Origin: Micractinium sp. NFX-FRZ
Taxonomy: Eukaryota; Chlorophyta; Trebouxiophyceae; Chlorellales; Chlorellaceae
Direction: 5' to 3'
Assembly (NCBI GenBank): GCA_029339195.1
Contig: JAPTJF010000173.1
Location: forward strand, 52,117-116,116
DNA: 64,000 bases
Below, in pieces: positions 8,495-28,408 of this stretch (positions are counted from its first letter, which is position 1; each line of letters starts with the position of its first letter). Below the pieces are notes generated by a model. That model had not been told where the DNA came from. It did not search any database and saw nothing but the letters and a program-made list of their open reading frames with translations. A program made the position numbers and the translations under genes.

Positions 8495-11400
8495 CTTGTT
8501 GGGAGACGGAGGGGGCAGTCGGGGAGGGCACGTCTTGTGCTACTCAGTCTTACTTCCCGCCCCTGCCCTACGCCTGCTGCCTGCAGAGAAGTCGCACCTG
8601 TATTATGGCGACGTGGAGGTTGTGGTGCTGGATGAGGCAGACACCATGTTTGACCGCGGGTTTGGGCCCGAGGTGAAGGCCATCCTGGCGGCGGTGCGCA
8701 GCAAGGCGCAGCCCGCGCGCTGCGTGCTGGTCAGCGCCACTATGACCAAGGCAGTGCGCAAGCTGGTTGGTGAGCAAGCAAGTAGGGAGGGCCATGTCTT
8801 TGCCCTGCCTGTCCACATCTTGTACCACGTGTGTCTTGATTGGCACTGGCATGGTGATGCGGGCGCGTGTGCTGGTCAGCGTGGCGGTGCCCACGGCGGT
8901 GTGCACGCTGGTTGGTGAGTGGCACAATAAGATTGGCAGCAGGCCCTTTGCAGCGAGCAATTTGGAATGGATGTGGCAAGCTTGGCAAGGGTTGGGTGAT
9001 GGGGGTGCAATTCTGCATCCTGTTGATTAACTTCCTTCTGTGCTTCCACGTGTTCCCCCCCTGCAGAGGAGGACTTCCCCCGCATCCGCCAGCTGGAGAC
9101 GTCCAGCCTGCACCGCGGCGTGGCGGGCGCCCGCCACACCTTTGTGCCCACGCCGCCCAACGGCAACAAGCTCGACCTGCTGCTGCAGGTGGGTGTGGGG
9201 GCCTGCTGCACGGCATGCCTAGTCCTTGCATCGCCTCAGACATTCCTCCCTCGCAAGGCTAGCTCGTTTAGCGCCAGCACCAGCGGCGAGGCTCTGAGTT
9301 CCAGCCAGCTGACTGCCCTTAGGCTCTTGTCCCCTCTTGCCTGGCAGGTGATCGAGGGTGAGCACCAGCGGGGCAAGCGCATCATGGTCTTCTGCAACAC
9401 CCTGGCCAGCTGCAGAGCAGGTGCGGGGGGCGGGCAGCGGGTTGGGGGCATGGAATGAGGGAGAGGTGGGACAACACTCAAAGTTCTGTTCCCCCTGTGC
9501 TGCGCAGCCCCACTCCTCGCCCCCGCCTGCCAACAGCACACGGCCCCTCTCCCCTCCACACGCACCCCCTCTTGACCCCGCCTCCTCAATGCTCCCCGCT
9601 CACTGCTTGCAGCCGACCACTTCTTGACGGAGCGGGGCCTGGACACGGCCTGCTACCATGGCGACGTGCCCGTTGAGGAGCGCAAGGCGGCCATCCAGGA
9701 CTTTGCAGAATCTGACGACGGCGTCCGCCCGCCGCTGCTGGTGTGCACCGACCTGGCGGCACGGTGAGAGCGGGGCCTGCCTGGATGGCTGACTGCATGG
9801 GCGGCTTGGCCTCCGACCTGCCTGCTTTGTTTCATGGCGTGTCTTCACCGGCGTACTCTGTGCCGCCCCGCCTGCGCCCACCGGCTGCCGGCCCCGCCAG
9901 CCCTCTAAGCCCCCTGCCCTGCGCCCCGCAGCTTGCCCCGCTTCCCAGTCCCAAGCTCTCCTTCGGACCCTTGCCCTCACTCTCCCTCTCCACATGCGCT
10001 CCCGCCCTGCCCCCCGCAGCGGCCTGGATATCCCCGGGCGTGTGGACCACGTCGTCAACTTTGACTTCCCCCTCAACCCAGTGGACTACCTGCACCGCAC
10101 CGGGCGCACCGCACGCGCCGGCGCCACAGGCACGTGCTGGGCCTGGGCGCTCATGCAAGGGGGCCGGACAGTGGGCAGGGGGCAGGGGACAGGAGTGAGG
10201 CACTGCAGGCAAAGGTGATCCTGCCTGCCCGTCTCCCACACGAATCAGCCAGCACCCTCGCTCGCTCTCTGACCCTGGGTCACCTCGCTCCCCAGCGTCC
10301 GGCGGCGGCAACATCACCTCCCCTGGCAGGCAGCATACGGATGACCCATGTCGGCGTGGCGCACCACGACCCCTCAAACAGCCACATCTGCCCATGTCTC
10401 CCCTGCAGGCCGCATCACCTCCCCGGTGCCCAAGGGGCGGGTGTTGCGGCCAGGCGCACCACCACGTCTCATTCAACCACACACACACACCTGCTGTCCC
10501 TCCCCCTGCAGGCCGCATCACCTCCCTGGTTGCCAAGGGCGACCGCGTGCTGGCAGGGCGGATTGAGGAGGCGCTGCAGCGGGGGCTGCCCCTGGATGCC
10601 CTCTCCTCCAGCAAGGAGGAGCTGCCGGCGCACATGAGGTGGGGGGGCGGTGGCCTGGGGGTGGGGTTGTGGGCAAGCACTGGGATGGGGGGTTGTTGTG
10701 TGCACATGAGGTGCGCTGTGTCGGGCCGGTTGCAAAGGGGTGAAGGCTCGAGCGGGGCACAGTCTGCGGGCCCTAAAACAGCAGTCGGGGTGGGGGGTGG
10801 CCAGTGGGGGGCCTCTAGCACAGCAGTGGCGGGTGGGGCGTGCGGGCAAGCAATGTGGTGTTGCCGGCACAGATCGAGGGTACGTTGTGTTGTGTTGTGT
10901 GCTGTGGCATGAGGCCGCGGGCAGGTGCACTACCCTACTGCTACCCCTCGGCTGCCTGCCTGCCTTCCCATTTCATCCGCGTCTTGGCTACCGCCACATG
11001 TCGGCCATCCCCTGTGGTTCACTCTCCCTTGGCCCTGTAGGCATGAGCGGGAGGCACTGTCCGGCTAGTTCTTGGGCGTCGTTACCCTTGTGTTCCCCTT
11101 GCCGGGGTGACGATCGACAAGGTGTGTGTTCCTGGTTGGATTCATCCCACTGCCTGCAGGCCCAAGCCGGAGACGCTGCGACGCAAGGCTTTGGAGAGGA
11201 AGGCGGAGAAGCATGGCAACAAGGGGGTGCGGGGGGCCAAGCGAGTGGAGCGCTTTGGAGGCGGCAGCAGCGGCAGCGGGAGTGCAGGCAAGAGCGCCAG
11301 CGGTGGCAGCAGCGGCGGATACAAGGGCAGCAGCAGCAGCAGTGGAGGCAGCAAGAGCGGCGGCAGCTTCGGCCCGGCCAAGAGCGGTGGCAGCTTTGGC

Positions 11401-11760
11401 GGCGGCAGCAAGAGCGGTGGCAGCTTCGGTGGCGGCAGCAAGAGCGGTGGCAGCTTCGGTGGCGGCAGCAAGAGCGGTGGCAGCTTCGGTGGTGGCAGCA
11501 AGAGTGGCGGCAGCTTCGGCGGTGGAAGCAAGAGCGGCGGCAGTTTTGGCGGCGGCAGCAAGAGCGGTGGCAGCTTTGGCGGCGGCAGCAAGAGCGGCGG
11601 CAGCTTTGGCGGCAGCAAGAGCGGCGGCAGCTTCGGCGGCAAGAGCAGCACCGGCAGCGGCGGCGGCTACAAGGGGGCTAGCAGCAGCAGCGGGCGTGGC
11701 GGCAGCGGCAGGCCTGCTGGTGGCAAGCCGCAGCAGCGGCGGCAGCCAAAGTTCAAGTGA
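7185..11760 (+). CDS. RH39: DEAD-box ATP-dependent RNA helicase, RH39-like, probably chloroplast
   Basis: RNA helicase that unwinds or remodels RNA using ATP; plant RH39 acts in chloroplast 23S rRNA maturation. Ten exons give 661 residues: 7185-7403, 7731-7875, 8179-8433, 8587-8769, 9067-9188, 9348-9420, 9613-9763, 10020-10129, 10512-10638, 11160-11760. The Arg/Ala/Leu-rich N-terminus (about 55 residues) looks like an organellar transit peptide. The Q-motif region starts near residue 63, motif I is HTGSGKT (108-114), motif II is [13 protein letters not shown] (DEAD 222-225), motif III is SAT (256-258), then VFCNT, CTDLAARGLD and [10 protein letters not shown] (408 on). The DEADTMFD context is typical of RH39. 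Motif Ia reads PTRELTDQ instead of the usual PTRELA. The tail is a [10 protein letters not shown] repeat ending RRQPKFK. Intron 8 appears to be GC-AG; only that choice keeps the frame. Confidence 0.86.
8726..8921 (+). repeat. duplicated exon 4 end and donor of the helicase gene
   Basis: The exon 4 end CTGGTCAGCG...CTGGTTG|GTGAG (8727-8774) is repeated in the intron at 8872-8921, ending in the same CTGGTTG|GTGAG. The copy has lost the SAT motif (it would read SVA), so the upstream donor is taken as the real one. Confidence 0.75.
10358..10545 (+). repeat. duplicated exon 9 start and acceptor of the helicase gene
   Basis: CTGCAGGCCGCATCACCTCC occurs at about 10405 and again at about 10506, each preceded by GGCGCACCAC and a pyrimidine-rich stretch. 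The second copy opens the real exon ([15 protein letters not shown]). The first would read [10 protein letters not shown] and then leave the family pattern. Confidence 0.8.
11355..11650 (+). repeat. 30-base coding repeat ([10 protein letters not shown]) in helicase tail
   Basis: About eight tandem units encode [10 protein letters not shown] with small variants at the ends ([22 protein letters not shown]). Third positions vary (GGT/GGC, TTC/TTT), so the units are not freshly copied. A Gly/Ser/Lys-rich tail of this kind is likely flexible and may bind RNA. Confidence 0.9.
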
Positions 11761-12319: not shown

Positions 12320-15300
12320 TCAGGGCGCCAGGGGCAGCAGCTCCTCCAGGCGAGCAACAATGGCGTCAAAGGCGGGGCGATCTGCCGGGTCATCCGCCCA
12401 GCACTCGCTGCATGGGTAGGGAGGGAGGGCGGCGCTGTGGTCAGCGGCGGCACGTCCGCCTGAGCGACTCCAGGCCAGCACGCGGGGAGGGGGCACAGCG
12501 GCGGGGCATTTGCGCAGCAGCAGGGACCAGGTGCACACTCTCGTGTCCACTGCCTCCCCGCCCCTTCTTCATATAGATCAAACTTTCCATAGAACAAGGA
12601 GAAGAACCAGGAGGTGAACGCCCCCTCACCTCATCAGCTGGCAGTATGCGTCCACCCCCCGGAAGGGGCCCTCCGCCCCGGGCAGCGCCTCTGGCGGTGG
12701 GATGGGCGGGCGCTGCCCGCTCAGCACTGCCTGCATGATCTTGAATGGCGCCATGCCGGCCCAGGGCAGCTGCCAGGTGAGAAGCTGCAGGTGGGAAGCA
12801 GGGGAGGGTGCGGGTTGGGTGCGGTTAGTGCCAGCGAAAGGGACCCCCCTGCCACGGGGCACATGTCCTCGCTGGTTCACTCAAGCCGCGCCCAATGGCG
12901 TATTCACATTGTCCTCTGCATCCTCGTGCGCTTCATCACGAGTGGGACTGCGGTTGGGGTGCATGCATTTGAGCACGGGGGCTTCGCCTGCCGACATGCC
13001 TCCCACCCAAGTGCCCGCCCCACTCCAGCGTCGCCCCCGCCTCGCACCTCCCATAGAATGAGGGCGAATGCGAACACATCCGATTTAGAGGTCGCCTTGT
13101 CCCCACGAAGCATCTCAGGCGACTGCATGGGCAGGTCAAGCAAGCAGGGAGGCAGGGGTGTGGTTGCCAATGGGGCCCTACAGCAGGCGAGCGCCAGCTG
13201 GCAGGAGCATCGTGTGGGCTGTCGCACCCAGGTAGATCAGCAAGCCTTGAGCTCGCCTGCAACAGCTGGCGCACCAGCGGCTGGCACACCAGTTGGGGGC
13301 CTAGTGGGCACGGCTTGCGTAGCGCAGAGCCCCCCAGCACAACTCTGACAGGCTTGGCACACCGCCTCCATAACAGGGCCGCCCCGCTGGCGCTGGCCAG
13401 GCAAACGGTCATACTAGGGCTGCCCTCCTCCTGACCACCCACCAGCCAGATGGGGTTGAGCGCCCCTCCCAAGGAGCTTGCCACCGATGCGATGCCCATG
13501 GTGCGCTCCTCCAGGACTTTGCTGAGGCCAAAGTCTGCACGCACAGGGAGATGGGGGGGCACTTCCAAGGTTGCGCACATGCCCTGGTCCCTTTGCAGGA
13601 GGTGGTCCGAGGTTGCATAGCAACGGGAGGGGGCACTGGGCAGGGGGAGCGGCGCTCAGCAGCAGCGTGTGCAGATGCAACAGTGGCCCAGGAGGACCCC
13701 CAGCATGTGTGGCGTGGCAGGTGGCAAGCACAGGCAGCACGCTGGGGCAGCACTGAACCGAGCATGCTCACCTCCCACTTTCACGGTGAAGTGCTTGTCG
13801 ACCAGCACTGCAGGGAGGGAGGGCAGAGGGGCAAGTGTTGGGCGGTGGGCGGGAGGCAGCACCGGGAACTAAGGTCGGGGCGCTGACTTGATGCTGGCAT
13901 AACCACGCTGCCACCCCCCACACAGGCCTCGGCACTCACGGTTGGGCGACTTGAGGTCGCGGTGGATGATGGGCGGGCTGCGGGAGTGGAGGTACAGGAT
14001 GCCCGTGGCAGCGTCAATCGCCTGCAGGGTGGCCACACAGACAGTGCAAAGAGTGAGGCGGGTAAGCAGAGTTACCGGCAGCTGCCGCTGTTGTTGCCAC
14101 CCACGGGCCATTGGCAGGGACGAGGGCGGCAGCATACAGAGCCCCAGCGGCAGTCGGTAGATCAGTGGGCAACATCGCCAGGCACTGACCATGCTCAGGC
14201 GCAGCTTCCAGGTGAGGTGCGCGGCACGGTCGGGGTCGCTGGCACCGCCACGCAGCACGTCGTACAGGCTGCAGAGGCAAGGGGAGGCAGGTGGGGGAAG
14301 GAGCGCTTAGGTGAGGCAGCCCTGATGAAAGAGACGAGGCCTTCGGGCCAGGCCGCGACAGCCTTGCTTCACACGTGCGACGGCACGGCAACCCCCCATT
14401 GCTGCCAATCCACATGCGGGTACTTCACAGCCGGCCAGCCCACCTGCCGTGCTGGCAGTACTCCGTGATGATGCAGGCCGGTTTCTCGCACAGCCCCATG
14501 AGTGCCAGCACGTTGGGGTGGCGTATGCGGCTCAGCACGCGGGTCTGCCAGGGGAGGGAGCAGGGGAAGGGGGAGAGGGTTGTTTGGGCAGGCAGGGATG
14601 GGGCGGAAGCCGAGCGGGCACATGGGGGCGCTCCCACACAACCTTTTCTCCAGCAACCGCTTGTGAACCCTGAATGCCTCCCTCTTGTCTATCATTCAGC
14701 TCTCCCTCAGCCAAAGCCCCCCTCGGCCAGAGCCTCCCGGCTGTGCGTGTCCCGCAGTGGAATGCTGTACAGGCTAGACTAGACTACCCTATACATCATG
14801 CCAGCCCCACACTCCCCACACTTGAAGCAGTTGTGAGCCCACCTCTTCCTCCAGCGAATGCATCAGCGCAGGAGGCAGCGTGAGTGCACCCGCCTCAAAC
14901 GTGTCACGGTCCACCAACACCTTGACCGCCACGGGGGTGGAGAAGTACTTGCCCGCAAACACCTGCAGGCGGCGGCCGAGAGGTTAGAGGGTCAGAGCCT
15001 TCCATTCGGGGTGTGATTGTATGCGGGCGACAGCTTGGCACGTTCCATTCCCGGCTTGCATGAACAGGGAGCCTCGGTGTGTGCTGAAGATGGGACAGCC
15101 AGCCGCGCTTGCGTGCAGATTGGTCCTCAGGGTGTGTGCCCAGAGGTGGACAGCGCTAGCGGTGTGTGAGTGGACCGCAAGCAACGGACCTGCCCGAAGG
15201 ATCCGGCGCCAATCCTCTTCTCGATTACCAGATCATCCCACTTGAGGATCAGGTGCTGCACGTCTGGGCGCTGGGAGACGCTTGTGGCGCGGGAGGCGCG

Positions 15301-18300
15301 CGACACGCCGCTGGCCCCCGACTCCAGCTGGCCGCTGGCCACGTCAGCACGGCCGGCGGTGCCGGCGGCGGGCAGGGAGGAGAGGTTGGAGGCGATGAGG
15401 GCCAGCAGGGGGTCGCTGCCCAGCGCCTGCTTGCCCCTGCAGCAGAGGGCGTCACATGGGGGGAGGCGGCGCAGTCAGGTGGTGTGGCGGGGGCAGGTGC
15501 AGCAGCGATTTGGCTGGGATGGCACGGGCGCAGCAGGCGTTGGGAGCTGGGTGTGTCAGTGAGGCCGCCGCAGCGGGTGAGAGAAGAGGCGAGCGTTGGA
15601 ATACCAAGACGAGAGATGGACAGTAGTGTCCCTGCCTGCCCACCTGGCGGAAGCGTGGCTGGAGGGAGATGAGCGCTGCGTGGGGGCCAGCTTGCTGCCA
15701 GTGAGGAAGGTGTCAGACGCGCCCCCCTGGGACTGCAGCTGCCATCCGGAGAAGCGCTGCCCGGGGGGCGATGCTCCCTTGGGCTGGCTGCCGCCTGTGG
15801 ATGCACTCAGCTTGTGGGAGGTGCTCTCCCCAGCCTCCGCCAGTTGCTGCACATCTCCGCCCCGCTGCTTGCGCTTGCGGGACCAGATGAAGAAGCCAGC
15901 CGCCAGGGCAGCCAGAGCTGCGGAGGGCGCAGAGCAGGCAAGGCGTGTGGCGTGTCGTCGCCGGGTGGGTGGTCACTGGTTTGGGTTTGAAAGTGAGTGC
16001 AAACGGTGCCACTAAAGGTCTGTCAAGTGTACCGCTGGCAGGCCACAGCAGCACATGACAGCATCGCCCCTGCCTGCCCGCCCCGCTGCAGTCTGGCACC
16101 CCTTTCCCAGCCCCAAGCAGCGCGCAGCAGGCACTCACCAACAGCGCCCGCCACACCGCCGATGATTGCACCCAAGGGCACGGAAGAGGATGAAGGTGAG
16201 GCCGGAGGTGAAGGGGGAGGAGGGACAGGGGAATCTGAGAGTTTGGGCACCAGCTGGCCATTGAGGGCGGACGTGGGCGCAGTCAGGCTATGCACATTGA
16301 TGTACAGCTGCCCCGCTGCCGCCATGCGCATAAAGGCGTCGGCGGGCTGCCCCTTGAGGTCGGCGTAAAAGTGGGCGGGGGTGAAGGTGCCCCTGCAGAG
16401 TGCGCGCGAGGGTCGGCGCCAGGTCAGCAGGTGCACGTTGCGCGCGTGTGCCCTGGCAAGGAGCCCAACCAGGCTAGCAGCCCTTGGTAGTGCCAAGGCA
16501 GCAGGCAGGCATGCGCGTTTGCAAATTGCTTCGCCCACCCGCCCACACACTCACTCGAAGGAAAGGTTGCCGGACCGCGGCGGGTCATAGGGGGTGTGGG
16601 TGTCGCCCTGCGGCAGGGGGGAAGGTGCATTGGGGTTGGGTAAGGGTCCAATGGGCACAGCAGTATCGCGCTGCCAGCACAGCGCAGCACAGCACCACGT
16701 GTTTCTGCAACCCGTTAATGTGGTGCCTTCAGACGTGCTGTGCATGCCGTGGCAGGGCGGGGTGCACCGCTCACCGTGCCGGGCGGCAGGAGGCCGACCA
16801 GCAGAGCCGCGCCGCCAGCGGAGGGGTTGCCAGAGTGAATGTGCACCTGCTCGGAAGGGGGCACGGATGTGGGGTTTAATATACTATAAGCACCCCACCT
16901 GTGCCAATACAGCCACCCCCTGCGGGTGCCACCCGGGCCACCCTGGGTGGGCAGTGAGCCATGTCATCAGCGCTGCCCTACCAACATCCTCTGGTACCGG
17001 GGGACTCCCAACAGGTGCCGCTCCTCCCTTGTGGGGGCGCCTGCCGCTCGCCCTGCCCCCTCTCTCTACCCACAACTATGGGATTTGAGGCAGGGCAGTA
17101 CAGCCCTGCCCTGCTGCGCTGCCACGCCTGTGGCTGACAGGGTCCCAGGTGACAGGCCCCCTCCACACACCTGAGTGAGGCCCTCCATTCCCTGCATGTT
17201 CAGCACCCATCCAAAGGCAGAGCCGTCGTCCTGCAGCCTCATGCTGAGCTTGGCTGCTGCTGCTGAGCCGCCGGCTGCTCCCGGGGGTGGCACCAGAACG
17301 GCTTCCAGGCTCTGTGGGCGGGCGGGGGAGCGGCAGGGTCATGCGCAGCAGCCTGGGTGGTTGTGTGAGGGGCAAGCAGGTGCGGTGGAGTGGGGGCAGG
17401 CTGGTGCATGTCTTGGCATGCTGGGCGTACCGTTGCAGGGGCGGGGACCGCCCCGCCGGGGGGCAGGAGCGGGCCATTGAGGGCGGACGTGGGCGCAGTC
17501 ACGCTATGCACATTGATGTACAGCTGCCCCGCTGCCGCCATGCGCATAAAGGCGTCGGCGGGCTGCCCCTTGAGGTCGGCGTAAAAGTCGGCGGGGGTGA
17601 AGGTGCCCCTGCAGAGTGCGTGCGAGGGTCGGATGCAGAGGGCAAGTCAGCATGCAGGAGCTGCACGTGCTGTGGATGCCGGTAGTATGGTTCATTTTTG
17701 CCGGCTTGACTGAGTGGAGCAGGTACGCCATGTCAGCAGCACTTGCGCCCCCACACTCACTCACTCGAACGACAGGTTGCCAGACAGCGGCGAGGCGTAG
17801 GGGGTGTGAGTGTTGCCCTGCAGGTCGAAAGCGGATCAGATGGGTGGCTCAGATGGGTGGGTCAGAACTGGAGTGCCAAACACAGCCCCACACATGAGCC
17901 TGCCTGACAGCCTGCGCAGTCCCAACACCCTGAGCTGCAGCCGTTGGCTGCTGCCCCGGCGGCCAGCTTTGCCAGTGACGGCAGCGCTCACCGTGCCAGG
18001 GGGCAGGAGGCCGACCAGCAGGGCAGCGCCACCGGCTGAGGGGTTGCCAGAGTGGATGTGCACCTGCTTGGAGGGGGGCACGGATGTGGGGCAAAAAGGG
18101 GAGCGCGTCAGCCAATACTGCGCGCGCGTCGTTGCAAGCCTTGCCCCACACAAAGCGCCACTGCCAGCCGTGCCCACTCGGTTGCCCACGTACTGCGCGC
18201 TGTGCCCAGTCAGTTCCCACACTTGCTTGATGTGCCTGCCACACCCTGCTAGGCAGCACCTGGGTCAGGCCTGTGATGTTCTTCACAGTCAGGAGCCAGC

Positions 18301-20095
18301 CAAAAACGTCTGCACCGCTTGCGCGCGTCATTGTGAGGGTGCCTGTCGCTCCACCAGCAGTCCCGGCGGGGGCCGCCAGGACCGCTTCCAAGCTCTGCAC
18401 ACAGCAGGGCACAAGGGACGGCGGCAGCTGCTGTGAGTAACCCATATGTGGCCGGGGTGAATGCTGCTGACAGTCATGCTGTGACAGCAGCATGGCATGC
18501 CACCGGCGCAACCTGCAGGTGCACATTCGGGCGCCATCAGGAAACGCACCTGGACGCCAGCAGCAGAAGATGCGGAGACCGTGGCTTGTGTGGGTGCAGG
18601 GGCAGGCGCAGGGCCGAGCATGGGCACGGGTGCAGGCTCCAGTGCCGGCGCTGGTGCGGGCAGGGGGATGGTGCGAGGGAGCGGCGCCGGCGCCAGGGCA
18701 GGCGCCAGCTGAGAGGGTGCAGGAGCCTGGGCCAGGGCGGCAAATGGAGCAGGTGCTGGTGCCAGTAAGGGAGGCTCGTCAGCCGGAGGAGCCAGGGCCG
18801 GGGTGGGTGCCGCCGAAGGGGCAGGCGCAGTCGTGCCGGCAGCTGGGGCCGGTCCAGTTGCAGGGATGGGTGCTGACGCAGGCGCCAGCTGGTCGGCAGC
18901 TGGGGCGGGGGCAGGTGCAGGGTTGGCGCTGGCAGCGCCCTGTGGCGCCGGCACTGGCGCAGGCGCCAGTGGACTGCCCTCGGGAGCAGCGGGGGCCGCC
19001 ACATCAGGGCCAGGCGCCTGCACCTGAGCCGGCGCAGGCGCAAGGGCCGGCGCGCCGTTGAGCATGCTGCCGTGGCGGTCCACCACCTGTGCTCTCAGTG
19101 CGCCGTTTGGGTAGGGCAGAGTGTGGATTGTGGTGTAGATCTTGTTCTGCGCCACGAGCTGGAGAAATTCGTCCGCTGTGCGGCCCGCGAGCAGGTTTTT
19201 CCAGGAACTGGGCGGGGGTGAAGGCGCCGCTGCAGGGAGCAGTGTGCAGGCAGGGCGCAGGGCGGCAGCAGCGTCGTGAGTGAATGTGTGCTCCGCTCAC
19301 TGCGCACAGCTTGGCACCAGGGAGCCGGCGAGCCGCCCATTGCCCGGATGGGTTTGTGCTGTCGGGATGCAGGATGCCGTACTCACGACAGGGTGACGTC
19401 GCCAGAGAGCGGGCGCGGCAGCATGTCCGTGCTCTGCAGTTGGATGGGGGCAAGCGGGGCGGGTGCGCGCATGCGCGCCAGCAGGTGACTGAGAGCGTGA
19501 AACAGGCCGCGCCGCACATGCAGCCATTGGCTGGGTGGCTCCGTCCCGGACGCACCTCAGTCTGGAGTGTGTTTCGCAAGTTGCTTTGCGTGAGACGCAG
19601 AGTGGCAACCCAAAACAAGCAGGGGTCGCTCACAGCAGCGGCCTCACCTTGTCCGTCCCAATGGGCAGGAGGACGACCAAGGCAGGCCCCTTCTCTCCAG
19701 GTCCGCCGTAATGGAAGTGTGCCTTTGTCACCTCTTTGACCCCCGTCAGATTGAGGTTCCACAGAAATGTGTTGCCATCGCTCAGCAGGTCCGCCTCGAG
19801 CCGGCCGGTCCCCACCTCGGCAGCAGACAGGTTGGATGAGACCGGACCCAAATCGACGGTCAGCAGCTGCGGGCAGGCGCAAGGGCAGGCGGGTGGCTGT
19901 GAGGTGGACGCCCACATATAAGGGCGCAGATAGCACCAGCGAGCGACTGTCAGTTTATTTCTGGGGTTGGATGGGCACCAGCAGAGCAGGGTGATCTCGG
20001 TCCGAACTCACCGCAAGCTTGTCGACTGCGGCGGCGGCGGCGGCAGAAGGGCCGCCAAGCAGCAGCAGCGCCAGTGCAACCAGAGCGGCCCGCAT
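12320..20095 (-). CDS. putative receptor kinase A: signal peptide, three CHRD domains, TM, TKL kinase
   Basis: Many-exon gene. The start at 20095 gives a signal peptide (MRAALVALALLLLGG); ATGs further upstream fit less well. CHRD domain 1 lies in about 19870-19080, followed by a Pro/Ala-rich linker of about 165 residues (19050-18550). CHRD 2 is in 18400-17430 and CHRD 3 in 17313-16230, both with VHIHSGN and YINVHS motifs. A membrane span (GAIIGGVAGAVG, then ALAALAAGFFIW) is followed by SRKRKQ. The cytoplasmic kinase has GAGSFGQV, VAVK (about 14925), IIHRDLKSPN (about 13950), DFGLSK (about 13530), SPEML in place of APE, and ends ECWADDPADRPAF. Stop 12322-12320. All catalytic residues I looked for are present, so an active Raf/TKL-like kinase is likely. 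The ligand is unknown; CHRD is a chordin-derived domain of poorly known function outside animals. Paralogue of the next gene. Confidence 0.78.
16230..16876. repeat. internal duplication in kinase A, copy 1 (CHRD 3)
   Basis: Near-identical to 17446-18092 at a constant offset of about 1,216 bases, including intron sequence such as GGGGCACGGATGTGGGG. It covers the exons for VHIHSGNPSAGGAALLVG, the short TPYDPPRSGNLSFE exon and FYADLKGQPADAFMRM. Confidence 0.9.
17446..18092. repeat. internal duplication in kinase A, copy 2 (CHRD 2)
   Basis: Partner of the preceding repeat. The short exon here reads TPYASPLSGNLSFE. Intron as well as exon sequence is shared, so this was a genomic tandem duplication and not convergence. 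Confidence 0.9.
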
Positions 20096-21622
20096 GGCTC
20101 CGGGACTCGCTTGCAGCATGCCGGGGCCTGTTCTCCGGCGCAGAAGCAGATATTTAAGGTCCAAGCCAAAAGGCGAGCGGGCGAGTTGTGCGTTCCAACG
20201 CCAAGCCCTGAGAAATGCACAGTGCCGGGCGCCCGCTGGTAATCAGAGATGTTCCGATTTAACAAACCCGCTCAGATTGTGAACACCGCTTTCGAGCCCG
20301 CTTTCATGTCCCGCGTCCACCGCTTCCCATGCCGCTTCCTTGCACATTCCGGGGAGGGAGGGCTTTGCATCTTCGCACGGGAGGCCGTGAAAAACGTGTT
20401 ATATTGGTTGTTTCAGCGTATACTGGGCAGCACGGCTTACTTTCTCTGCAACACAGCGGCTGAGCTGGAGGCGGCTGAGCTGGCACCGCCGTACCTGCGT
20501 TGCATGACTGCATGGCATCACATGCCTGAGTCGGTCACCATGGTGTGTGTTTGGGGGGAGATGCATGGCTCAGTAGTTGCAGTTTGGGGGTGCCCCTGCC
20601 GCTCCCGCTGATTGTGTGGCCAGGGCTGGCACCGCCAGAAGCGCTAGCTGGGCACGCAGGGGCCGGCCCCCCTGCTGGTTGGAGGGCACCACCCAGCTCT
20701 TTCGCATTGCACTTGAGAAAATGTTAATGCCCACCAAGGTGCCTCTAGTGCGTTATGACCTTGGCTGCCGCACCGCCAGCATGCCTGCCAGCAAGCCAGC
20801 CTCCCTGGCGCCTCTGCGTGCAGCCAGATCTGCACGCAGAGAATCAGCACGAGATCTCGGGCTGGCAGCAGCTGGTAACATCTGGTAGCAGCTGCATCCT
20901 GTGCTGGCAGCAGCGGCGCCGGCTGCCGTGCAGGACCAGCCTCAAAGGGTCCAGCCTCGGAGCCCCCCGCTGCCGAGGCAGCGGCGGGGAGGGGGGACCT
21001 GGCATGCGGACCACCCAGTGTTAGACAGCCCGCCCGGTAGCAGCCCGCCCAGTACCTGAATTGGGGCGGAGCATGCCTGGTACTCGTAATGACAGCCCAA
21101 ATGTGGCTCACGATCATTGTTGCATGAAGCTGCACCTGCACGGTCATGCTGAGCATGCTGCTCTTGTGAGATGCAACAGGGCTGATTACAGGGCCGGATC
21201 ATCGCTACAGTAGCAGAGGAGATGTGCAGACGAGACAGGATCATGCAGGTGTGCAACCGGGCCGCAACCGGATCTGAGAAATTGCCCGGGTGGATCTGAG
21301 AGATTGTCAACAGCATTTATCAACAGGATTGAAACCGTGAAAGCTCGTGTACCGGATAGGCTGAGCAGGCAGAACAGGGTCATGCCAGGGCAGGTGCCAC
21401 ATATGGTTAATCAGAAAAGGAGAGTGGAGGCCTGCACGGATGGCAGGCGGTGGGGATGAGAGCGCTGGCCCACGCAACGGGCCGGAACCAAAGAGCGGTT
21501 ACAGGGGTGTCAACTGATGCTGAGACGGGCGGTGCACCGGCTGCTCAGTGTGCCGGTGCTGATCATGAACTGTTCCATTGCGCCGGCAATGCAGCGCACA
21601 CCAACAGGTGCGCGAGCACTCC
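20096..21622. other. intergenic region between the tandem kinases
   Basis: Holds the promoter and 5' UTR of kinase A and the 3' UTR of kinase B. A minus-strand TGTAA at 21503-21499 lies about 120 bases past the kinase B stop and is a candidate polyadenylation signal. Open frames here have no recognisable domain. Confidence 0.45.
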
Positions 21623-24600
21623 TCAGCGCGCCGCCGCTGCAGGCGCCAGGGGCAGCAGCTCGTCCAGGCGTGCGATGATGGCGGCAAAGGGCGGGCGCTC
21701 GCAAGGGTCGTCGGCCCAGCACTCCCTGCACAGCAGCCAGTGCACGAGTAGAGGCAGGAGCGGCAGGAGTGGCATTGCTTCAAGCTAGTTCAGCAGGCGG
21801 GCGCTCATTGGGTTCGTCCTCCCAGCAACATTCATGCAGCGCCAGGTGAGGAGTAAGACAGGCATTACAGCTCTGGTGGAACGAAGCACTCATGCAGCAG
21901 CGTGCATGCATGCGGCAGCATCGCAAGCAGCAACAGCAGGTAAGCCCGCGGAGCCCGCCATACTGGGTTCAAATGGCAGCATGCCCCCCCTCACCTCATC
22001 AGCTGGCAGTACGCCTCCAGCCCAGGGAAGGGGCCCTCCGGCCCGGGCAGCGCCTCTGGCGGTGGGACCTCTGGGCGCTGCCCGCTCAGCACGACTTGCA
22101 TGATTTTGAAGGTGGACAGGCCGACCCAGGGCAGGCGCCAGGTGAGGAGCTGCGGGGGAAGCGGGCGGGCAGGTGGGCAACCATAAAGCGGCGGGTGGGT
22201 GAAAGGAGCTGCAGACCGTCCAGGCCCGCACAAAGGGCTGAAGGGCTGAAGGGCTGAAGGCGCAGCTGTGCACCGGCGGGCAACCACCAGCAGTCAGAGC
22301 GGCAAGCAGCAGGCAGCAGGCGGCAGCGGCAGCAGGCGGCAGCCATCCAGCCACCAGCGTCTCAAAGTCGCGGGGCAGCAGGCAGGCCATCCCGTCCTGT
22401 GGTGGCTCAATGCCAAGGTGGCATCTTCTTCTGGGTGAGGCGGGAAGCTGAGGAGGCACACTTGACTTGCCGTGCCAGCAGGGCAGCGCACCTCGAGCAT
22501 GACGATCCCAAAGCTGAAGACGTCGCTGGCGGCTGTGGCCTTGTCGCCACGCAGCACCTCCGGGGCCTGCACGAATGAAGTGGTTCGTGCAGGGGGCCCA
22601 AAGGAGCGCGGCAGCTTGCAAGGGGGCGGGCAGGCTGGCGGGGCTGCGCTGCTGGGTGTCCTAAGGGCCCCCTAAGGGGAGGCAAACACAGCGCAGCACA
22701 GCATGGCGCCAGTTGGCGGCATCTGCGCTCAACAAGCTCCCTTGCTGTGCGCCGCATCACTTGGGTCTACACAGCTGCTGCCCCCCCCCCCCAGATCACG
22801 CACCAGCCAGAGGGGGTTGAAGGCTCCCCCCATGGAGCTGTTTGCCGACGTGGCGCCCGGATTGTGCTCCTCCAGGATCTTGGATAGGTTGAAGTCTGCA
22901 GCGGGAGAGGAGGAGGCACTTGGGCAAATTGTGACTCAGCTGTCCAGTTCGGTCATCGGGAATAAAGCGGGCAGCACGCAGGAAGGGGTGCAAGGGGTGC
23001 ACGCAGCCGGCCAGCAGGGGAATGAGGAGGGAGGGAGGAGAGGAAGGGGGTCAGCGCCGGCTGTGGCGGGCATGCATGCCCGGTGCAGGGCATTGCGCTG
23101 CATGTCGCAGGCAGCGCTGAACAAGGCAGTGGCAAAGCTGCACAGCAGGTGCCGCTGGCTGCTCACCTCCCACTTTCACGTTGAAGTGTTTGTCCACCAG
23201 CACTGCAGGGGGAGGCATGGAAAGCATGGATGAGGTCATGAGAGAATGACAGTGAGCGGGGAATGCAGCACGGCAGGGCAAGCAGGCAGGGGGTCGCTGG
23301 GCAGCGGGCAGCAGTAACCATGCTGCCACCCCCCACACAGGCCTCGGCACTCAACGGTTGGGCGACTTGAGGTCGCGGTGGATGATGGGCGGGCTGCGGG
23401 AGTGCAGGTACAGGATGCCAGTGGCGGCATCAATTGCCTGCAGGACGGGGGAGGGATCACGGCATAGGGGAGCTCAGGGCAGCTGCTAGCACCAATGTAT
23501 GGCGCACAGCTGTGGGATGGGATGAGCAGGGCAAGGGTGGGCAGGGCAAGCGTGGGGCACATAGAGCGGCAGGCATGGCAGGGGCAATCTCACCATGCCC
23601 AGGCGCAGCTTCCAGGTGAGGTGGGCGGCGCGGTCGGGGTCGCTGTTGCCGCTGCGCAGCACGTCGTACAGGCTGCAGCAGCGGGAGAGGGGTGAAAGTG
23701 GAGCCTCTCATTAGGTCGACACACGGAAGCAAACAACAGCTGCCGCACAGCGTGCACAGCAGGCAGCACGCCCTCTACCCACGCGGCACCACGCCGCCCG
23801 TGTTCCCCGTGCCTGAAATCACGCATGCAGTCACGCCCAGGCTCACCTGCCGTGCTGGCAGTACTCCGTGATGATGCAGGCCGGCTTCTCACACATGCCC
23901 ATCAGCGTGAGCACGTTGGGGTGGCGGATGCGGCTCAGCACGCGGGTCTGCACACGAGCATACGAGGTGACCCCCATAAGGGGGTGGGGCAGGGTAACTA
24001 GGGCTGGAAATTGGAACACGGGTGCTTGAAACTTCACTTGAAACTTGGCATGCCCCTGCGGCAGCGGTGCCCCTGTGAATGCATGGCTCCTCTCCACCCT
24101 GTACAGCATCCCATCCCCATCCCTGTCTGCTTACACCACTGCACACACGACCCGCCCCACCCGCTCACCTCCTCCTCCAGCGAACGCATGAGCGCCGGCG
24201 GCGGCTGCAGGCTGCCGGCGGCGATGCCAGAGTCGGTCTCAGAGCCAGTGGCGGGGTTGGTGGGGTCCAGCAGGATCTTGACCGCCACCTGCATGCACAT
24301 GAGACGAGGACGGTAAAGGCAGAAGGGGGGCATGTGAGGCACGTGCCGTCTGGCATCTTTACTGGGGGGCAGTCCACCTATCATCTGCCATGCATGCAAA
24401 CGCTAGATGGAAGAGGAGGTTGCTCAATTTATCCTGCCCTTGACACACCTGCACGCATGGGCATGGATGCCTGACACATGATCTGCCCCGACGCAGCTCT
24501 TCCACCCCACCCCAGGCGCCCCGCCCACCGCCTCACGTCGGTGGAAAAGTAGCGCGCGCGGTACACGCGGCCAAACGACCCCGCCCCGATGCACTGCTCG

Positions 24601-27600
24601 ATCACCAAATCCTCCCACTTGATTGCCAGCTGCTGCATGTCGGGGCGGCCGCGCAGCGTGGAGGAGCCACGCGACAGCCCCCCAGTGCTGCCGCCGCCGG
24701 CAGAGAGCAGGCTGCTGACGCCTGGCGGGACGCCGCGCGAGCCCACGCGCGCGCTGCCGCCACTGGCGGTGCCGGGCTGGGAGGAGAGGCGGGAGGAGAT
24801 GAACGAGAGGAGGGGGTCGTTCTCTATCAGCTGCTTGGACCTGCGGCAGGCGGAAGCAGGAGAGGCAGCGGTACGTATGGTCAGGTGGTGGGAGGGCTGG
24901 GGGGGCGATGACGGAGAGGAGGGGCTGCTGTTGAAGTGCAGCCCTGCTTGGAACCTGCAGTCAATTGTGTCGGTAGGGTGGGTCGAGCTGGGCTAGGGTG
25001 GTGTGGGAGGAGATGGTTGGGAGAGACGAGGCAGGCAGGGTGTAGCCGCCGCTTCCAGCCCTTTTGCAAAACCCTCTCAACCCGGGCCCACCCTGCCCAG
25101 CCGCACCTGGCAGCCGACGAAGCAGAGTGGTTGGAGTGGTGGCTGGAGGGGGAGTACCGCTGGACCGGGGCGGGTGCCACCCTGGTGCCTGGGAGGAAAG
25201 TGTCTGTGCCTGGGTCGGACTGCCAGCCAGAGGCTGCGGATGGCGCCTTCAGTTGGCTGCTGTCCAGGGAGGGGGCCCGCTTGGAGTGGCTGCCCCCTTC
25301 CTCCACCAATGCCTGCCCGCCGGCGCCCTGCTTGCGCCGGCGCGAACACATGAAGAGCGCCACCGCACCGGCGATGAGCACTGCAGGCAGGGGCAGGGGG
25401 GCGGCAAGAGTGAGGCATTGCCCTCACATATGGCAAGTGTGCAACCCAGGCGTTGGGGTGGCAGCAGAGTCGACGGCATGCGGCATGCCGAGGCAGCACT
25501 CCTTCCTTGCTTGCAGGGCACGCTGCAGGAGGCAGACCAAAGCGTACACAGCTTGGCCAGCAGGCGCACTCACCAACACCGCCCACAGCGCCGCCGACGA
25601 TTGCGCCGATGGGAACAGAGGACGACGGAGCAGGCGGTGCGGCGAGCGGGGAGGGGGGCGGCGACACCGCCGGCGACAGAGACGTCGCAGGCAGGCCGCT
25701 GGCTTTCAGCACGCCGCTCACGGCGCCGTCGGGCGCATCCACTGTGTGGCAGTTGATGTACAGCTGCCCGGCAGCTGCCTGCTTCATGAATTCCTCGGCA
25801 GATGCGCCCTTCAGGACGGAGTAGAAGTCGGCGGGGGTGAAGGAGGACCTGCATGGGTGGGCGGGGAGGGGAGGGGAGATGCACACACCTCAGCAAGGCT
25901 CGCCAGCAACTCGCAAGCGCCTGCTAGATAGGAGATCTGCGCACCTGGAAACCGCCACATCCTGCACACGCCCGTGTGGTCCCAGACCAGTTATTCCTTA
26001 TTTGCACATGTGCTGCCTGCCAGGCAAACCAAGTTTACGCCCCTGCCCCAACAACCGCCTGACGCCACGCCTGCCCGACACCACACCTCACCCCACGCCC
26101 GCCAGACCCCTGTGACCCTCCCAGCCCCCTGCCTCACTCATAGCTGTAATCGCCATTGACGGGAGGGGCGAACTTTGTGTAAGTGTCCCCCTGCAGGCAA
26201 ACGGTGATGGAACAGCGGTCAAGGTGGGCGGAGCGGCACAGCATGCCAGATTGGCGCTGGGAGCAGACGGCAAAGGGGCACTCTGCCTGCATCACACCAC
26301 GGGCGCTCCCTGCACAAACTAGCAACACGCGCCCTGTTGCCCTCTACCACTGCCGAACCCCAGACCTCTCTCCCTCCCTGCACACAGCATTAGCAGCAGC
26401 GGCAGCACCCACCGTTCCCACGGGCAGCAGCCCCACCACGAGTGCGCCCCCACGCGTGCGGTCCCCCTGGTGGATGTGCACCTGCGGGGGGGCAGCATGC
26501 ACAGCGCGGGCAGCACGCGCAGCCGGTGTATCTGTGTCAGCATACACGACCATTGAAAAAGAGCATCCTTTTTTATGCCTATTGAAGGGGCGTAACAGGG
26601 GTGACTATTGAAGGTTCTGGCAGAGAGGTAAAGTTGGCTCAAAGGGTGCCCTCACGCCACCCTCTGGAAACTAGAGCGCACAGGTTGTCCAGAGCTCTGA
26701 AGTACTGCCCGGTACCACCCTGCCAGCCCACCCACCAGCGTCAGGCCCACAATGTTCTTCAGGTTGAGCACCCAGCTGAAGGCCCCGCCAGCCAGGGTGG
26801 CTGTGAATGTGCCGCTGGTGACGCCCACCGGGCCCGAGGGCGGCGTCAGCACAGCGGATACAGTCTGCAGCAGGTGGGGACGGGGGGTTTGGTGGGTCAT
26901 ATGGTAGGGGGTGGGGTGGGGGTGCGCTGTATGCAGCATGCCGTGGCGTTTGCCAGCATGCCAGCATTCGCCAGCTCAGCGCAAGGGCCGAGGCATGGAG
27001 GGCGCTGACGTGACGGCCGTCAAGGTGGTGGGCAGGACGGGGCATGAGGACGTGGCACAGCACATCACAGCAGGCAGGCAAGGCAGGCAAGCCATCAAGA
27101 GCTGCCTGCCGCCCTGTGCACCTGGGCAGTGTTCTGAGGGGTCGTGGGCGGTGCCATGCTCGGGGCAGGCGACACAGGTGCGGGTTGAGGTGAGGGCGCG
27201 CCAGCTGGCGCCAGGGAGGGCGACGGCCCTGCACCGCCCTGATCCTCAACAACCTGCCCCCTCAGCGCGCCATTTGGGTAGTCGAGTGTGTGGACAGCCA
27301 TGTACACCCTGCAGCCAGGCAGTACGAAAGCAAGCACGCATGGGATCTCTCATCTCGCGCTCTGCCCGAGCAGCCCAGCATACTCCTGTTCTGTACGCAA
27401 GGCAGCAGCACCAGCTGCTGTGGGCAGGCAGCCCCCCTGTGCACCTCACCTGTTGGCAGCGACCATCTCCAAAAACTGGGAGGCAAACATGCCTGTCGCC
27501 TGGTTTATGAAGTTTGCAGATTCGAATGTGCCCCTGCAGCAGGCGGCAGGGAGCGTGAGCAGCCAGCCGGGAACACAAGTGCCGCCCCTTTCTGGGGAGG

Positions 27601-28408
27601 CGTTCCGCTGCCCTGCGGCCAGCCTAGCCACGTACGCTAGGTTTGATCTGCACCCTCTTCTGCCCACTCACTGGACAGAGACATCTCCAGACAGCGGGGT
27701 GGGCAGCTGGTCCTCAGAGCTCTGCACACAAAGCGGGCGCGGCAGGGGCATGCTGGGCTTGCTGGGCACGCTCCCCGACTGGGAGGCACGGGCACGGGCA
27801 CAGCGTGCGGCATGCTGTGCACGCTGCCCTCCAATACACAGGCAGGCCTGAGCAGATCACCTGATGAAGCTGCAAGCTGCCCCTCTACCCAGGACCAGCT
27901 TGGACAATCGCTTCTGCCCCGCCAGCTTCTGCCCAGCAGCTGCCAGACGCACAACCCACCCGCCAGCTCACCATGCCGCCAGCTGGGACGAGCACCACCG
28001 CAACTGGCCCGACGTCGCCCGGCCCGCCGACGTGCAGGTGCGCCTTTGTCACGCCCGTCACTCCGGTGAGGTCTGCCTTCCAGCTGAAGATGTCGCCCTC
28101 CGCGGAAAGCGTCACCGCCAGCCGGCCGTCGCCCACAGAGGTGGGCAGGTCGGATGCGACGGGGTTCAGGTCAGCGGCCAGCACCTGGGGAGAAGGCAAA
28201 GCCGGGGGGCAGCAGGGGGCAGTGAGCGAGGCACAAGCACAGTGTTGGCAGGAAGGCCACTCGGTAGGTACCACATGCCCGGCTTCCCAGCTCAGTGCTC
28301 CCTGCCGCTTACCGCCAGCACGTCACTGCCGGCAGCGCCGCTGCCAGCCAGGGGGCCGGCCAACAGCGCGAGGCACCACAGCAGCGCTTCCATCTGCTGG
28401 AGACGCAT
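21623..28408 (-). CDS. putative receptor kinase B: signal peptide, two CHRD domains, TM, TKL kinase
   Basis: Tandem paralogue of kinase A on the same strand. The start at 28408 gives MRLQQMEALLWCLALLAGP, a signal peptide. CHRD 1 spans exons in 28190-27240 (VLAADLNPVASDL, KAHLHVGGPGDVG, VYMAVHTLDYPNGALRGQV). CHRD 2 spans 26870-25700 (VHIHQGDR, FYSVLKGASAEEF, YINCHTVDAPDG). The membrane span is VPIGAIVGGAVGGVG plus VLIAGAVALFMC, then SRRRKQ. The kinase has GAGSFGRVYRARYFS, VAVKILLD, CEKPACIITEYCQHG, IIHRDLKSPN, then DFNLSK where DFG is expected, NPLWLAPEVLRGDKA, and ends ECWADDPCERPPF. Stop 21625-21623. The metal-binding Asp of DFG is kept and Gly is replaced by Asn. It lacks the third CHRD domain and the long Pro/Ala linker of A. 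Exon ends are approximate. Confidence 0.78.

Follow-up and report, generated by a model that had tools for sequence, protein, structure and literature searches.

Tandem genes for probable receptor kinases with CHRD ectodomains in the green alga Micractinium

Can CHRD domains serve as the outer, sensing part of a receptor kinase in a green alga? The question is raised by two neighboring minus-strand genes, here called A and B, in a 64,000-nucleotide stretch of the Micractinium sp. NFX-FRZ genome (contig JAPTJF010000173.1, positions 52,117-116,116; hereafter the window). The assembly comprises 66 Mb in 838 contigs, the window has a G+C content of about 65%, and protein searches found the closest named proteins to its genes in Micractinium and Chlorella. 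Our answer is that the two genes form a tandem pair that is real and well supported, and that they encode probable receptor kinases whose ectodomain is unusual. Specifically, we consider it probable (roughly three chances in four) that A and B are paralogous single-pass receptor kinases with CHRD arrays on Pro/Ser-rich stalks outside and a CTR1/Raf-like kinase of the tyrosine kinase-like (TKL) group inside, acting by ligand-triggered phosphorylation. The evidence consists of the computed architecture, purifying selection, a CHRD-kinase homolog from Micractinium and relatedness to kinases bearing different ectodomains.

Splice sites were set from conserved exon pairs by comparing the minus-strand frames of the gene A half with those of the gene B half. 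In the resulting model of gene A all 19 introns are GT-AG, and the exons form a single open frame of 858 residues with no internal stop. All 22 introns of gene B are likewise GT-AG. If exon 4 of gene B begins at the acceptor that matches its paralog (19229), the frame breaks inside the exon; if the acceptor used lies 22 nt deeper, so that the exon starts at 19207, the entire gene is open and encodes 1112 residues. Splicing on the kinase side is supported by the entry P0043, provided that it is a transcript: this 526-residue frame on a 2483-base contig is 83% identical to the kinase region of gene A and spans all ten junctions of gene A exons 10-20 without a gap. The features of both genes, all on the minus strand, are as follows.

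21623-28408, minus: gene A, two CHRD domains, transmembrane (TM) span and TKL kinase; 20 exons, 858 residues (spliced model, Pfam)
28313-28408, minus: gene A exon 1, carrying the start codon and a hydrophobic leader, a putative signal peptide (spliced model, hydropathy)
27122-28184, minus: gene A exons 2-5, CHRD1 (residues 33-168) and proline-rich linker (spliced model, Pfam)
25574-26864, minus: gene A exons 6-9, CHRD2 (residues 211-342), Ser/Pro-rich stalk and first part of the membrane span (spliced model, Pfam)
25381-25573, minus: gene A intron 9, phase 1, splitting the membrane span at the seam between ectodomain and TM part (codon and phase recur in gene B and at five further kinase loci of this genome)
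25107-25380, minus: gene A exon 10, rest of the membrane span, SRRRKQ stop-transfer and juxtamembrane DTFL motif (spliced model, motif scan)
21623-24635, minus: gene A TKL kinase, residues 546-853, from the end of exon 11 through exon 20, with GAGSFG, K582, D700 and D718 of DFN (5' limit computed from the residue position)
12320-20119, minus: gene B, three CHRD domains, TM span and TKL kinase; 23 exons, 1112 residues with the 19207 acceptor (spliced model, Pfam)
20012-20119, minus: gene B exon 1, likewise carrying the start and a hydrophobic leader (spliced model, hydropathy)
18550-19866, minus: gene B exons 2-4, encoding CHRD1 with a long Ala/Pro linker; exon 4 (19229-18550) has a frame break with the paralog-like acceptor (spliced model)
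17431-18394, minus: gene B exons 5-8, a unit of four exons encoding CHRD2 (spliced model, Pfam)
16139-17311, minus: gene B exons 9-12, again a unit of four exons, encoding CHRD3, the stalk and the first part of the span (spliced model, comparison with CHRD2)
15644-15917, minus: gene B exon 13, rest of the membrane span, SRKRKQ and juxtamembrane region (spliced model, motif scan)
12320-15255, minus: gene B TKL kinase, residues 815-1112, exons 14-23, with GAGSFG, K851, D959 and D977 of DFG (5' limit computed from the residue position)

Both halves of the proteins are readily recognized by Pfam. The CHRD model (PF07452, cut-off 24.1 bits) matches two stretches of A (103 bits, E = 2.3e-29) and three of B (116.1 bits, E = 2.1e-33), and PK_Tyr_Ser-Thr matches A with 170 bits (9.2e-50) and B with 180 bits (6.9e-53). 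Apart from the overlapping Pkinase model, no other family exceeds its cut-off, and neither A nor B shows the vWC domain expected of a chordin, even among matches with E values as high as 0.1. Hydropathy, on which all leader and span calls are based, gives one strong hydrophobic span ahead of the kinase (residues 377-395 in A, 656-674 in B), followed by the basic stop-transfer SRRRKQ or SRKRKQ. Both N-termini are hydrophobic, that of A more weakly; it scores 1.66 against a threshold of 1.75 and so went unflagged in the scan for hydrophobic stretches. Leader, ectodomain, single span and kinase thus lie in one frame, in B only via the 19207 acceptor. The third CHRD of gene B seems to have arisen when a unit of exons was duplicated in frame, because CHRD2 and CHRD3 each occupy four exons with equal start phases and are 77% identical. 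The initial annotation had described exactly such a pair, with leader, two or three CHRD domains, one span with a basic stop-transfer and a Raf/TKL-like kinase. The spliced models, hydropathy and Pfam, whose cut-offs for CHRD and kinase are exceeded by a wide margin, bear this description out, and its outer limits, 12320 and 28408, coincide with the modeled gene ends.

The kinase type was judged from solved structures and from motifs. Among PDB chains, CTR1 is the top match to the gene A kinase (3ppz, 184.9 bits), and the first non-CTR1 entry, with a score of 137, lies about 48 bits lower. A large part of the best 60 of 2455 matches consists of TAK1, MLK-type and B-Raf entries; tyrosine kinases (EGFR, a Src-Abl ancestor, ephrin receptors) are also present, and no RLK/Pelle kinase is among the 60. 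The domain therefore resembles a CTR1/Raf-like TKL kinase rather than the RLK/Pelle group of receptor-like kinases (RLKs), in agreement with the earlier Raf/TKL assignment. Judged by sequence, A and B appear equipped for activity, as both keep the Gly loop, the VAVK Lys, the HRD Asp and the DFx Asp, the last within DFN in A and DFG in B. Of 122 related proteins scanned for motifs, 115 have a readable HRD; among these the DFx motif is DFN in 101, DFG in three (gene B included), DFA in one and unread in ten.

We then asked how the two proteins relate to others. A whole-protein search returned 42 proteins, of which only P0001 (M. tetrahymenae ABPG75_000254) combines CHRD with a kinase. It matches with 722 bits overall, its kinase is 63% identical, and it has the same order of CHRD domains followed by a TKL kinase of the same kind. 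Deposited as a 'hypothetical protein', it differs in a C-terminal extension and in having, by eye, three CHRD units, one of them apparently shortened in the deposited model. A word search of the main text of the M. tetrahymenae genome paper (PMC12516953) found none of 'kinase', 'receptor' and 'CHRD'. The search with the kinase region gave 3922 proteins among 7992 scored; of the 120 listed, P0001 alone has CHRD. Others listed carry accessions that we take to denote LRR, RCC1 and F5/8C domains. A hydrophobic span precedes the kinase in 80 of the 115 relatives, some of these spans being Ala-rich and doubtful, and juxtamembrane motifs of the DTFL and D-x-LL-x-x-I-x-S-R-L types recur in the LRR kinases P0002, P0046 and P0064. 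A search with an alignment of three ectodomains scored 7996 candidates with zero at E<=0.001, but proline-rich words probably swamped it and it is uninformative on absence.

A tree of 51 hand-picked kinases (quick search, supports from the Shimodaira-Hasegawa-like approximate likelihood-ratio test only, long outgroup branches) joins A with P0043 (99), then B (96), then P0001 (100). This CHRD-kinase clade is nested, with support 99, in a group of 19 rows whose other 15 members comprise nine LRR kinases, three RCC1 kinases and three without an annotated ectodomain. Related TM-kinases accordingly bear several kinds of ectodomain, CHRD among them. The 44 algal rows separate from three rows of PERK, an RLK/Pelle kinase (support 86), although PERK is part of the outgroup chosen for rooting. 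The idea that A and B represent an independently evolved algal receptor family is thus sustained as to the receptor layout and the non-RLK/Pelle kinase, whereas a separate family is not, as the CHRD clade lies within a chlorellalean TKL group. Among the related kinases, P0047, P0119, P0131, P0132 and P0143 carry PF00211, presumably guanylate/adenylate cyclase, and P0132 also PF13458; these are possible receptor kinase-cyclase fusions.

Comparison of A with B shows purifying selection on both the CHRD half and the kinase half. The ratio of nonsynonymous to synonymous substitution rates (dN/dS) is 0.30 for the kinase; for the CHRD domains, where values are rough because dS is near or above 1, it is 0.34 for CHRD1, and 0.33 and 0.46 for A CHRD2 against B CHRD2 and B CHRD3, respectively.

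The genome itself contains many more kinase relatives (116 exon matches in 54 clusters), some of which need not be receptors. Two of these exon sets, separated by about 3.1 kb, have the same scores (G000:C127:125700-127765 and 128778-130843), which suggests a recent tandem duplication. For a comparison of the seam we took ten kinase loci; six have a GAIVGG-type motif, making eight with A and B. In seven of the eight (A, B and five others) a phase-1 GT donor splits the span at one shared codon; at L116, the exception, this donor was not seen. Such an intron is a plausible place for swapping ectodomains without touching the rest, and ectodomains may have been exchanged there. LRR motifs are visible in three of the paralogs (L109, L111 and L113), where single LRR_1 matches all fall just below the cut-off; an LRR ectodomain in these is only suggested.

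Several observations weigh against reading A and B as receptor kinases. The fusion is known from spliced gene models, and a transcript joining CHRD to kinase was not seen; the N-terminal residues of P0043 read like the end of intron 9, at the very seam. P0001 is itself a prediction, a hydropathy scan found no membrane span in it, and the structure model of the whole protein failed, its mean predicted local distance difference test score being 36.1. In gene B the 19207 acceptor drops one strand of CHRD1, and otherwise the frame breaks. The TM-juxtamembrane part has a dN/dS of 0.59 (A against B), and the CHRD ratios are the rough ones. The juxtamembrane motifs are local, DTFL-type occurring in 12 and D-x-LL-type in six of 115 proteins. 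Finally, DFN replaces DFG in gene A, although the same holds for 101 of the 115 relatives.

Assuming that A and B are receptors, the most likely mechanism can be sketched. With CHRD as the putative sensing module, which is reasonable, the array would bind an extracellular ligand or wall component. Binding would then change the association or conformation of the receptors, and their kinase domains could phosphorylate one another and cytosolic targets. Surface location, ligand binding, activation and catalysis are all predicted properties here. Our favored guesses at the ligand are a metal at a conserved three-His site and a wall polysaccharide.

One alternative has the CHRD array act as a wall or matrix sensor that, by analogy with chordin, would bind anionic polysaccharide. 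Chordin CHRDs bind sulfated glycosaminoglycans, according to the excerpted text of PMC13382577, and a wall-spanning sensor would suit the Pro/Ser-rich stalks. However, all 13 CHRDs counted have a net acidic charge (-2 to -10, taken over the whole domain), and for this reason binding of anionic glycans is not favored. We regard this reading as possible, if on the unlikely side.

A second alternative, which we hold to be unlikely, makes the CHRD array a metal or redox sensor, the signal being copper or a change in its redox state caused by superoxide. We take the CHRD domains of A and B to be barrels of the superoxide dismutase (SOD) type with its Greek-key β-structure. Each barrel keeps three His, two as H-x-H on one strand and the third on the strand before last, and these might correspond to three of the four residues that bind copper in Cu/Zn SOD. 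That correspondence rests on the fold and the order of motifs, because hhalign of the 13 CHRDs against E. coli SodC superposed the H-x-H pairs without being significant (E 0.28, probability 0.2%). Conservation of the His in 79 loci is biased upwards, since these are nearer relatives of P0041 (a protein close to Lewinella; the best 80 of 231 relatives were kept) and were picked out by a pattern that directly follows the third His. The structural model behind this reading is of a bacterial CHRD rather than an algal one; Foldseek gave zero matches at E<=0.001, and its best 50 rows are 47 SODs and three nitrophorin entries, with no chordin entry among the rows listed. The third His is missing from the three human chordin repeats aligned at that place. 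As far as the excerpts of PMC13382577 go, crystals of human chordin CHRDs have no metal in those regions, and metal ligands are cited as not conserved. Nor are the CHRDs of A and B SODs themselves, as CHRD1 and CHRD2 of A and CHRD1 of B hold three His each, too few for both Cu and Zn sites. A more elaborate version, in which an SOD-fold barrel without catalytic loops but with three copper-type His was shuffled by exon at the phase-1 intron onto a TKL chassis and senses extracellular copper or superoxide, strikes us as quite unlikely. If true, it would describe a kind of receptor, a copper/superoxide-sensing surface kinase, that we did not find described in the searches made. The conserved His triad also offers a concrete biochemical hypothesis for CHRD, a widespread and poorly understood microbial domain.

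Separate or alternative transcripts, in which a retained seam intron leads to one secreted protein with CHRD and to a kinase of its own, would account for the start of P0043, which resembles the seam-intron end running into the TM exon, with the ten junctions after it all spliced. The gene A frame is also open through intron 9 (open reading frame 25077-25889). The apparent retention could reflect a route to a soluble ectodomain or simply unspliced RNA; P0043 is a single contig and may be incompletely spliced. Furthermore, P0001 was deposited as a single CHRD-kinase protein, the seam intron is common to other kinase loci, and, because this phase-1 intron splits the span, neither half alone would form one. 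We therefore find such a division of the product hard to credit. Least probable of all is that gene B is a decaying copy whose protein is not made: the paralog-matching acceptor does break the frame inside exon 4, but all other exons are open, an in-frame acceptor exists, the catalytic residues are kept, dN/dS is low, and an assembly error is an equally possible source of the break.

We also looked at CHRD elsewhere. The Pfam model finds genes A and B and one further locus in the genome, C20; a search with one gene B CHRD matches A and B only, and one with gene A CHRD1 adds weak matches at C20 and C51, the latter doubtful (E 0.07). These counts are lower bounds because the searches were exon-wise. 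C20 (G000:C20:256500-266400, L024) has two CHRD units with their His motifs kept. It was considered as a third receptor and rejected, as a motif scan of its 9.9 kb found no HRD or DFx, only two short minus-strand chance matches; perhaps it encodes a secreted partner of the receptors. A viral scan found one CHRD relative. The initial annotation had traced CHRD to animal chordin and bacterial proteins. This is too narrow, given C20, with no kinase found, and a published signal-peptide protein with CHRD in Chlamydomonas (Cre12.g533100), reported as secreted in the excerpted text of PMC6313938. A CHRD protein of Chlamydomonas W80, also reported as secreted, is cited in PMC12825985.

Beside the pair, a neighbor convergent on gene B (9793-11760, plus strand) contains a helicase piece (Helicase_C, 34.9 bits); downstream of it runs an open frame rich in a GGSKSGGSF repeat, which stems from 10.2 tandem copies of a 30-bp unit at 11342-11640. 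The two are assumed to form one gene.

How, then, do A and B compare with known systems? Human chordin shares the CHRD family and SOD-like barrel, as far as the excerpts of PMC13382577 go, but is a secreted antagonist of bone morphogenetic proteins with vWC domains and no kinase. The secreted green-algal proteins share CHRD as well, and no kinase is mentioned for them in the excerpted texts of PMC6313938 and PMC12825985. Among the open PMC matches listed, titles and abstract openings gave no description of a CHRD receptor kinase, most subscription journals and all preprints being outside this scope. Plant RLK/Pelle proteins have the same layout of leader, ectodomain, one span and kinase, and differ in kinase group and ectodomains. 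The plant CTR1/Raf-like TKL kinases, conversely, provide the nearest solved kinase, but CTR1 is not known to possess a leader, a CHRD domain or a membrane span. TKL receptor-like kinases, in which a TKL kinase is joined to membrane spans, occur in oomycetes and Dictyostelium; we know of none there with CHRD. Chlorellalean TKL kinases such as P0002, P0046, P0050 and P0003, deposited as hypothetical or CTR1-like, have a related kinase, usually with DFN, preceded by a glycine-rich span; the nearest also share the juxtamembrane motifs, while the ectodomain is LRR, RCC1 or F5/8C instead. A and B are a novel variant of receptor kinase inside a broader algal TKL group. Surveys of chlorophytes count RLK/Pelle genes and for that reason usually report few receptor kinases. 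In the available part of a 2024 review RLKs are few and patchy, with one to about four in chlorophyte rows of its table and presence in 9 of 18 chlorophytes (PMC10868138). The A/B locus points to a parallel chlorophyte set of TKL receptors with varied ectodomains, and the phase-1 intron common to their membrane spans makes the swapping of those ectodomains testable.
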